Shown here one piece after another: positions 2,687 through 5,728 of a stretch of DNA of 46,159 nucleotides. Made by a program: the position numbers and the translations under genes. This DNA comes from Nitrospira lenta (GTDB taxonomy: Bacteria > Nitrospirota > Nitrospiria > Nitrospirales > Nitrospiraceae): NCBI GenBank assembly GCA_945865525.1, contig CAMBDY010000016.1:1-46159 (forward strand). The letters are read 5' to 3'. The stretch's first letter is position 1. Every line of letters starts with the position of its first letter. A model generated the notes under the pieces. The model was not told where the DNA came from, did no database searches, and saw nothing but the letters and a program-made list of their open reading frames with translations.

Positions 2687-2714
2687 TTGACAAGTGTTTT
2701 TGCGGGTGTATAAT
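2687..2714 (+). promoter_or_regulatory. Sigma70-type promoter of the dcw cluster
   Basis: A perfect -35 box TTGACA (2687-2692) and a perfect -10 box TATAAT (2709-2714) are separated by 16 bases. The expected transcription start is near 2720-2722, about 40 bases before rsmH and right at the first MraZ-type repeat. It is the best promoter match in the window and is placed to drive the long rsmH-ftsZ operon. Confidence 0.85.
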
Positions 2715-2725
2715 CCACCGATAAG

Positions 2726-2750
2726 TGGGAGAAAGTGGGTAGTTTTGGTC
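2726..2750 (+). promoter_or_regulatory. MraZ-type operator: three TGGGN-like repeats with 5-base spacers
   Basis: TGGGA (2726-2730), TGGGT (2736-2740) and a weaker TGGTC (2746-2750) are spaced exactly 10 bases apart. This is the arrangement described for MraZ binding sites upstream of dcw clusters (TGGGN repeats with 5-base spacers). The site starts at or just after the predicted transcription start, so a bound repressor would block the promoter at 2687-2714. MraZ is normally encoded as the first gene of the cluster; here rsmH is first, so the regulator must be encoded elsewhere if the site is used. Confidence 0.65.
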
Positions 2751-2760
2751 GCGAATATGT

Positions 2761-3678
2761 ATGGAGGATTCTAGGCATTTACCGGTCATGCCCGCAGAGG
2801 TGCTGTTTTGGCTGGTTCAAGAAGAAGGTCGAACCTGTCTGGATTGTACGGTGGGATACAGTGGGCATGCTGAAAGAATTCTTGAGGCGAGCGGGTCTGG
2901 TGGCAGACTTATCGGATTGGATCGCGATGCCATGGCGATTGCGGCGAGTCGCGAACGACTCGCGCGATTTGGCGATCGCGCACTTCTTCTACAGGGGCAT
3001 TTTGCGGATCTGAAACAGCATCTTGCGGCGCAGGGCATTCGTCGAGTCGATGGGATTTTGTTCGATCTGGGTGTCTCGTCTCCGCAGTTAGATGAAGCGG
3101 CGCGGGGGTTCAGTTTTCAGGGAGATGGTCCGTTGGATATGCGCATGGATCAATCGACGGGCGAGACCGCCGCCCACCTGGTCAACCAATGGCCGGAGGC
3201 GCAGTTGGCCGACACAATTTTTCAATTCGGTGAGGAACGATTTTCTCGGCGCATTGCGCGCGCCATCGTGAGCGCGCGCGCACGACAGCCGCTGGCGACG
3301 ACGCAGGAGCTAGTTGCCGTCATCGAAGGGTCGGTGCCGGCCAAGTATCGGCATGGTCGGCTTCATTGCGCGACGCGCACATTCCAGGCCCTTCGTATTG
3401 CCGTCAATCAGGAGCTGGAGTGTCTGGAGGGGGCCTTGCGCGATGCGGTGGAGGTGTTGTCGCCCGGCGGACGCCTCTGCGTGATCTCGTTCCATTCGCT
3501 CGAAGATCGGATCGTCAAGCACACGTTTCGGGCCCTCGCAGACCAGGAGGATCCGGAGTTAGCGATCCTCACGAAGCGACCGCAGGTCGCCACGAGTGAA
3601 GAGTCAACTCGAAATCCACGCTCGCGTAGCGCCAAGTTGCGGGCCGCGCAACGAGTCACCATGGAGGGGCATGCATGA
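2761..3678 (+). CDS. rsmH: 16S rRNA (cytosine1402-N4)-methyltransferase
   Basis: RsmH (MraW) methylates N4 of C1402 in the 16S rRNA decoding centre using S-adenosylmethionine. The 305-residue length is normal. Visible hallmarks are the N-terminal HLPVMPAEV, the SAM-binding loop DCTVGYSGHAERIL, the signature FDLGVSSPQLDEAARGFSF followed by GPLDMRMD, the CVISFHSLEDRIVK block and the C-terminal NPRSRSAKLRAAQR. The start at 2761 has no clear ribosome-binding site: GGAGGA lies inside the first codons (2763-2768). A short leader or an alternative start at the ATG at 2788 cannot be excluded. The stop overlaps the ftsL start by 4 bases (ATGA). It opens the dcw cluster in place of mraZ. Confidence 0.95.
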   Translation: MEDSRHLPVMPAEVLFWLVQEEGRTCLDCTVGYSGHAERILEASGSGGRLIGLDRDAMAIAASRERLARFGDRALLLQGHFADLKQHLAAQGIRRVDGILFDLGVSSPQLDEAARGFSFQGDGPLDMRMDQSTGETAAHLVNQWPEAQLADTIFQFGEERFSRRIARAIVSARARQPLATTQELVAVIEGSVPAKYRHGRLHCATRTFQALRIAVNQELECLEGALRDAVEVLSPGGRLCVISFHSLEDRIVKHTFRALADQEDPELAILTKRPQVATSEESTRNPRSRSAKLRAAQRVTMEGHA

Positions 3679-4010
3679 AGACGCTCATGATTCTAGCCGG
3701 TGTGATGTTGGTCTTTGTGTTTGTGTGGGAGCGGGTAGATGTCGTGCGACTCGGATATCAGATCGAGCGATCGAAGAGTCAGAAGATATTGCTGGAGCGC
3801 GAGCGGGATCAACTGCAAGTGAAGGTTTCGTCATTGGCGGCGCCTGAGCGGATCGCAAAGGTGGCGACGGAGAAGTTGGGGATGGGGCCCCCACAGCAGG
3901 GGCAAATCATCATGGTGCATCAGCCGATGGAGGCACCGGGCTCGTCATCTCCGTCCGTGGAACAGGTTCGGTTAGCGCGGCATATGGTAACGGGGAGAGT
4001 AAACGAGTGA
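3675..4010 (+). CDS. ftsL: Cell division protein FtsL
   Basis: A 111-residue bitopic membrane protein with one N-terminal transmembrane segment (about residues 4-20, TLMILAGVMLVFVFVWE), followed by a predicted coiled coil (about 25-60, rich in Glu, Arg, Leu and Gln in heptads). A conserved-looking PERIAKVATEKLGM stretch comes next and matches the FtsL/DivIC pattern. Sequence conservation in FtsL is low, so the call rests on topology, size and position between rsmH and ftsI. It would form the FtsQLB complex that activates septal peptidoglycan synthesis. The start codon overlaps the rsmH stop and its own stop overlaps the ftsI GTG start, so translation is probably coupled. Confidence 0.85.
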   Translation: MKTLMILAGVMLVFVFVWERVDVVRLGYQIERSKSQKILLERERDQLQVKVSSLAAPERIAKVATEKLGMGPPQQGQIIMVHQPMEAPGSSSPSVEQVRLARHMVTGRVNE

Positions 4011-5728
4011 CCGTCGGCCCCTCACGCGGTCGTCGCTATGTGATGCTGTTCCTGTTTTTCTGCGGGTTCAGCATCATTCTGTTTCGGTTAGTCACGCTCC
4101 AAGTGCTGCAAGCGGCAGACCTCACCGCCAAGGCCGATCGCCAACATGAAAAAACTGTCTCGTTCGAGGGGGCCAGGGGTATGGTGCTGGATCGCCATGG
4201 CAAGGTGCTCGCGATGAATGTGGAGGTGCCCTCCGTCTTCGGCATCCCCACGTCCCTCGCGAACCCGTCGGAATCTGCTCGCCACCTGTCGCCAGTCCTC
4301 CACATGCGCAGCGGTGAGCTGGAGAAGAAACTCCGGCAGAAGAAGAGCTTCGTTTGGCTGGCGCGCAAGGTCGAGCCTGAGCAGGGCCGTAGGTTGGAGC
4401 AGTTGTCGTTGGGCGGAATTGGAGTGGTGATGGAGGGGCAGCGCTTCTATCCCAATGGACCGTTACTCTCTCATGTCCTTGGATTTGCAGGAATCGATGG
4501 GCAGGGGCTGGAGGGGCTGGAGCGCCGATACGACCCCCAACTGCAAGGAGAAAAACGCGTGACCGTGCTGCAGCGTGATGCGCTGGGCCAAACGATTTTT
4601 CCGAAGGGCCTGAAGGAGCAAGTGCCGACGCCGGGACAGGCCCTGACGCTGACGGTGGACGAGGTCATTCAATACATTGCAGAAAAAGAATTGGATGAGA
4701 CGGTCTCGCGCACCGCGGCGAGGTCCGGGACGATCATTGTCATGGAGCCGCAAACCGGCGCGATTCTCGCGATGGCCGTGAGTCCGCGGTTTGATCCGAA
4801 TGCCGTGAACGCCTTGACGCCTGATCGGTGGCGTAATCGGGCGCTGACCGACACCTACGAGCCGGGGTCGACGATGAAGGCGATGGTGGCGGCGGCGGCG
4901 CTGGAAGAAAAGGTGATGACGCCGGACTCCATGATCTTTGGTGAAAACGGCAAGATGACGATTGCGAGTACGACGATTCACGACCATGAAAAGCTCGGCT
5001 GGATGACGTTTTTCGAGATGATTCAAAAGTCCAGTAACATCGGCGCTGCGAAAACCGGAATCGCCCTCGGTGACCAGCGGCTCTACCGCTATCTCCGGGC
5101 TTTTGGATTTGGTCAACGGACGGAGATTGATCTGCCGGGCGAAGTCAACGGGCTTTTGAAGGCGCCGAAGGATTGGGGCCGCCGAACGCTGGCATCGATC
5201 TCGATGGGACAGGAGATTGGGGTCACGCCACTGCAGATGGTGTCGGCGATCGCGACACTCGCAAACGGGGGCGTGAGTATGAAGCCTTATGTGGTGTCTG
5301 CCGTGCACGATCCGAAGGGGCTGCTCATGCAGGAAGTGGCGCCTTACGCGAAGCGGCGCGTGGTGTCGGAGGAGACGGCCACGATGGTGACGACCATGTT
5401 GGAAGGGGTTGTCACGAACGGCACGGGCAAGAAGGCGGCGATTCCCGGATTCCGTGTGGCGGGCAAGACGGGGACGGCGCAAAAAATCGATCCACAAACC
5501 CGCCGCTATTCGACCTCCCTATTTGTCGGATCGTTCGTCGGCTATGTGCCGGCGGAATCCCCTCGGTTGGCCATGATCGTGGTCATCGATGAGCCGCGAG
5601 GCGAAGCGTGGGGTGGGACCGTCGCGGCGCCAGTCTTTCGGCGGGTTGGGGAGCAGGTGTTGAACTATCTTGGCGTGTCCAGAGAGGACACCGTGAAAAT
5701 TGCATTGGTGGCGAAGGACGCCAAATAG
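4007..5728 (+). CDS. ftsI: Septal peptidoglycan transpeptidase (class B PBP)
   Basis: FtsI/PBP3-type D,D-transpeptidase of 573 residues, cross-linking septal peptidoglycan in the periplasm. It has a short cytoplasmic N-terminus, one membrane anchor (about residues 9-28), a PBP dimerisation domain, and a transpeptidase domain with all three active-site motifs: STMK with Ser288 and Lys291, SSN at 342-344, and KTGT starting at Lys487. The run RFYPNGPLLSHVLGFAG is the usual linker block of this class. Translation starts at GTG 4007, overlapping the ftsL stop (GTGA). Its partner polymerase FtsW is encoded at 11329. A spoVD-type PASTA tail is absent. Confidence 0.95.
   Translation: MTVGPSRGRRYVMLFLFFCGFSIILFRLVTLQVLQAADLTAKADRQHEKTVSFEGARGMVLDRHGKVLAMNVEVPSVFGIPTSLANPSESARHLSPVLHMRSGELEKKLRQKKSFVWLARKVEPEQGRRLEQLSLGGIGVVMEGQRFYPNGPLLSHVLGFAGIDGQGLEGLERRYDPQLQGEKRVTVLQRDALGQTIFPKGLKEQVPTPGQALTLTVDEVIQYIAEKELDETVSRTAARSGTIIVMEPQTGAILAMAVSPRFDPNAVNALTPDRWRNRALTDTYEPGSTMKAMVAAAALEEKVMTPDSMIFGENGKMTIASTTIHDHEKLGWMTFFEMIQKSSNIGAAKTGIALGDQRLYRYLRAFGFGQRTEIDLPGEVNGLLKAPKDWGRRTLASISMGQEIGVTPLQMVSAIATLANGGVSMKPYVVSAVHDPKGLLMQEVAPYAKRRVVSEETATMVTTMLEGVVTNGTGKKAAIPGFRVAGKTGTAQKIDPQTRRYSTSLFVGSFVGYVPAESPRLAMIVVIDEPRGEAWGGTVAAPVFRRVGEQVLNYLGVSREDTVKIALVAKDAK

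Follow-up and report, generated by a model that had tools for sequence, protein, structure and literature searches.

A conserved MraZ-type operator in front of rsmH in Nitrospirales, probably read in trans by an MraZ encoded outside the dcw cluster

The element that precedes rsmH in Nitrospira lenta, at positions 2723-2749 of the window (the whole 46,159-nucleotide stretch of contig CAMBDY010000016.1 analysed here), is very probably a true MraZ operator, through which an MraZ encoded at a distant locus would repress the dcw cluster in trans, the direct autorepression of mraZ having presumably gone. In published systems, repression of dcw by MraZ proceeds through GTG-type repeats that lie over the start site, just past the -10 box, and follow one another every 10 bp (PMC7761207; PMC8475190). 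We infer MraZ binding, dcw repression and loss of the feedback in the present case.

On the plus strand of the window, rsmH (mraW; 2761..3678; Pfam PF01795, E 3e-108) is the first dcw gene and is followed by ftsL (3675..4010; PF04999, E 2.5e-6) and by ftsI, a downstream dcw gene encoding a PBP3-type transpeptidase (4007..5728; PF00905, E 7e-84). The RsmH protein has its close relatives in Nitrospira MAGs. The first-pass annotation had stated that rsmH stands first with no mraZ remnant upstream, and this was borne out by a tblastn search with the genome's own MraZ, which returned nothing upstream of rsmH and only matches with E >= 0.023 in the window as a whole. An outer-membrane-like gene on the minus strand (1531-2288) is apparently divided into two reading frames around position 2046, by a frameshift or an assembly error, and its 172-aa part has no Pfam match.

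The rsmH promoter consists of a -35 element, TTGACA (2687..2692), and a -10 element, TATAAT (2709..2714), both matching the consensus and separated by a 16-bp spacer. Downstream of TATAAT the sequence reads AAGTGGGAGAAAGTGGGTAGTTTTGGT, which places TGGG at 2726-2729 and again at 2736-2739, and TGGT at 2746-2749. The complete repeats are AAGTGGG (2723..2729), a second AAGTGGG (2733..2739) and a degenerate TTTTGGT (2743..2749), and the array agrees with 11 of 12 consensus letters at steps of exactly 10 bp. The consensus for MraZ repeats is reportedly TGGGN-N5, as given by Eraso et al. in 2014. An MraZ box is expected to consist of multiple GTGGG-type direct repeats spaced by 10 bp and to lie just past the -10 box of the promoter that drives the first dcw gene. 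Both features are found at 2723-2749, with the third repeat degenerate and the first one beginning 11-12 bp after TATAAT, so that the array overlaps the predicted transcription start.

Considered in the window alone, such an array could perceivably be a chance or residual feature with no present function, given that an equally good score arises in 14 of 4000 Markov simulations when the 472 bp ahead of rsmH are modelled (a chance of ~0.35%). We attach practically no weight to this reading, because it is refuted by conservation. When the regions upstream of rsmH were compared in 70 genomes of the same family, three TGG(G) cores at steps of exactly 10 were present in all 70, across the genera of the family and with the linking bases drifting; the repeats, their 10-base spacing and their place at the predicted start of a consensus promoter are therefore as the first-pass annotation had described them, and the check on relatives that it had proposed gives the same answer. 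The array scores 11 of 12 in 54 of these genomes, 10 in 12 and 9 in four, a score of 11 is attained by 0.17% of shuffles, and at any other spacing the scores fall to background. In a weight matrix built from the 70 family sites, the information is concentrated in the TGG cores of all three repeats and in the AAG ahead of repeat 2, at ~1.5-1.7 bits per base, with little in the linking bases; even in the degenerate third repeat the TGG core is retained at 93-95%, with 1.55-1.62 bits at its three columns. The promoter is conserved along with the array, as TTGACA-N16-TATAMT occurs in nearly all of the 70 genomes (the promoter scan gave no result in one, G040), and the distance from the -10 box to the array ranges from 8 to 14 bp among these relatives. 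Among the six mraZ-bearing species of the sister family (f2), however, a weakened array was seen in two (G161, locus L212, and G164, locus L213), so that the control is not retained everywhere; this, like the degenerate third repeat of N. lenta, weighs against the operator reading.

The array is also unique to the region upstream of rsmH, as emerged when the same repeat was sought elsewhere in the 1.8-Mb genome with IUPAC patterns. Both the exact AAGTGGG-N3-AAGTGGG and the whole array without mismatch occur once. The sole match with one mismatch, at C8:52067, was rejected as a second operator, lying inside a response-regulator-like coding frame, and relaxing the search to at most two mismatches produced 18 matches in the genome against 11 for a reversed-pattern control, i.e. 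no indication of further operators. Across the genus there is likewise one perfect site per genome, at rsmH, with the other one-mismatch matches scattered.

Another reading starts from the location of the repeats, since the array falls within the predicted 5' leader, its last repeat ends ~12 nt ahead of the rsmH ATG (2761), and no clear Shine-Dalgarno sequence was seen for rsmH in this genome. The repeats might accordingly be imagined to act in the mRNA leader, as a translation element or as the target of an RNA-binding protein, with no role as an operator in the DNA. We regard this as very improbable, however, because the 10-bp period corresponds to one turn of DNA and other spacings carry no signal, because in the outgroup Nitrospirota the same array, with a similar promoter, precedes mraZ and not rsmH, because known MraZ boxes occupy the same place, and because an Rfam search returned no family matches.

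A DNA operator of this type calls for a reader, and the first-pass annotation had left the choice between an MraZ acting in trans from another locus and another protein that has taken over the site. The search of the genome with an MraZ profile, which it had suggested as a check, revealed an intact mraZ on contig C11 (28620-29057, minus strand; PF02381, whole-protein E 6e-28). Its product contains two PF02381 stretches and the motifs DEKGR (residue 11) and DKAGR (residue 84), and therefore has what characterizes the MraZ family, a tandem pair of SpoVT-AbrB-like domains that both carry a D-x-x-x-R motif; residues 2-133 can be aligned to solved MraZ structures.

If another DNA-binding protein had taken over the old MraZ site, the distant MraZ would be doing something else. 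In favor of such a takeover, the MraZ of the order is strongly diverged, at 24-31% identity to its class relatives, which share 38-59% among themselves, and the array is present even in three family genomes where mraZ went undetected (G003, G004 and G015). Against it, mraZ was found in 73 of 78 family genomes, both DNA-contact motifs (D-x-K-G-R / D-K-x-G-R) are retained in all 57 order MraZ sequences read, and the half-site and spacing of the array are identical to those of the MraZ boxes of the outgroups and of E. coli, where K-12 has AGTGGGAAATTGTGGGGCAAAGTGGG 43 bp before mraZ. Moreover, all five family genomes in which the search missed mraZ are drafts, estimated to be 76-96% complete, that lack the neighboring rusA too, and two of the three that carry the array have sister species with mraZ, so that assembly gaps are the likely cause. 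Of the two options, it is hence the action of MraZ in trans that is favored, by the intact gene elsewhere, the conserved array and the outgroup- and E. coli-type site, and a takeover strikes us as improbable. Neither outcome that the first-pass annotation had named as refuting, repeats not conserved in relatives or a genome devoid of mraZ, was observed. On the other side, the DNA specificity of the order's MraZ could have shifted, given its low identity to class relatives, with the operator itself unchanged.

In the phylum genomes compared, the separation of mraZ from rsmH is confined to the order. Where the listings gave the coordinates of both genes, and with adjacency taken as a distance of no more than 2.5 kb, the two adjoin in 86 of 86 genomes outside the order (80/80 outside the class, and 6/6 in the class but outside the order) and are apart in 32 of 32 Nitrospirales genomes (26/26 in the family of N. 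lenta, 6/6 in the sister family). The most parsimonious history would be that the two genes were separated once, in the order's ancestor, and that the promoter and operator stayed behind at the head of the cluster. Our literature search of openly licensed papers found no report of such a separation of mraZ from its operator.

At its new location mraZ belongs to a conserved block, HTH_17 - mraZ - rusA, which in N. lenta spans G000:C11:28050-29271 on the minus strand. Upstream of the block lies a divergently oriented gene for an ABC-transporter ATPase, as in most other cases where the contig allows. A RusA-type gene follows mraZ in 57 of 57 order loci, i.e. in both families, and a 65-aa HTH_17 protein (excisionase/MerR-like) was detected upstream of mraZ in 41 of 51 family loci. 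None of the 57 order loci has an MraZ box at mraZ: over 700 nt of upstream sequence the best scores are on a par with those of shuffles, they fall mostly within coding sequence, often that of the HTH_17 gene, and the weight matrix reaches at most ~11, compared with 22-40 at true sites. Because the mraZ locus lacks an MraZ box, direct autorepression would be gone; direct autoregulation of mraZ in the order thus appears to have been lost or replaced.

What may have replaced it in Nitrospiraceae is suggested by a palindrome, TGACA-N5-TGTCA, in the mraZ promoter upstream of the HTH_17-mraZ-rusA operon (G000:C11:29353-29384, in locus L003). It was detected together with TTGACA, at no more than two mismatches, 10-11 bp upstream of the TTGACA -35 element in 46 of 51 Nitrospiraceae mraZ promoters, and in none of the six mraZ promoters of the sister family. 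At zero or one mismatch, the composite of palindrome and -35 element occurs once per genome in the genus, and it lies at the mraZ promoter wherever the position of mraZ is known; within the genus it is apparently private to mraZ. The palindrome is probably the site of a regulator. The HTH_17 protein is unlikely to be its sole reader, as some species that have lost the HTH_17 gene retain the palindrome in the form TGACC-N5-GGTCA. This change, matched in both arms, would suggest that a dimeric protein distinct from HTH_17 binds there.

The divergence of the order's MraZ can possibly be explained either by fast change after the move or by replacement with a foreign gene. The branch leading to the order measures ~2 changes per site, and the order's MraZ is closer to Firmicutes-like MraZ in phage-labelled records, which it matches at up to 38-40%. 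In a small MraZ tree, with few rows and a long branch and with the outgroup row G087 left out on account of a misread frame, the order's MraZ fell on the Firmicutes-like side; tree tests rejected its grouping with the class (AU p 0.012) and with the phylum (p 0.028) and did not reject a grouping with the Firmicutes-like rows (p 0.12). A foreign (xenologous) origin is weakly favored by these comparisons and should be treated as a lead. The "phage" records (OR847157.1, OR847551.1, OR846610.1 and others) are unverified, their MraZ genes resembling host chromosomal DNA, as expected of contamination, and a scan of IMG/VR for a viral origin found nothing. We tentatively put forward, as a possible but rather doubtful scenario, that the Nitrospirales ancestor lost its native dcw mraZ and that a foreign MraZ, inserted together with rusA at a distant locus, came to read the inherited operator, which would have opened the feedback loop and, in Nitrospiraceae, placed the supply of MraZ under a new regulator binding TGACA-N5-TGTCA. 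If this were true, the expression of division genes would be tied to a different signal.

The model we prefer, trans repression by a distantly encoded MraZ, can be outlined as follows. The three direct repeats, one helical turn apart, would cover the dcw transcription start, such that a bound MraZ oligomer would block RNA polymerase. The mraZ gene sits at a distant locus ahead of rusA, in Nitrospiraceae usually behind the small HTH_17 gene, from where its product would repress the dcw operon in trans, and in Nitrospiraceae its own transcription would be set by the private promoter with TGACA-N5-TGTCA.

This arrangement shares with the MraZ/MraZ-box dcw systems of E. coli, Burkholderia cenocepacia, Mycoplasma and Corynebacterium the AAGTGGG-type half-site with its 10-bp step, the position just past the -10 box and the two-domain layout of MraZ. 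Unlike in those systems, the Nitrospirales mraZ lies outside the operon, at a locus of its own without an MraZ box, and its promoter in Nitrospiraceae contains another conserved element. The outgroup Nitrospirota dcw clusters (mraZ-rsmH-ftsL...) have the same promoter and operator as the order, at the cluster head in both; there the operator controls mraZ as the first gene, whereas in the order rsmH takes that place. The Nitrospirales arrangement is, in other words, a rewired variant of the known MraZ system.

Few bacterial regulators are as conserved as MraZ. In Nitrospirales, an order to which the nitrite- and ammonia-oxidising Nitrospira of environmental importance belong, the operator is retained throughout but the regulator has been uncoupled from it, so that action of MraZ from a distance is probably feasible and a dcw cluster without mraZ must not be taken as evidence that MraZ control has been lost. 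The uncoupled mraZ of Nitrospirales amounts to a natural experiment on the purpose of the autorepression feedback.
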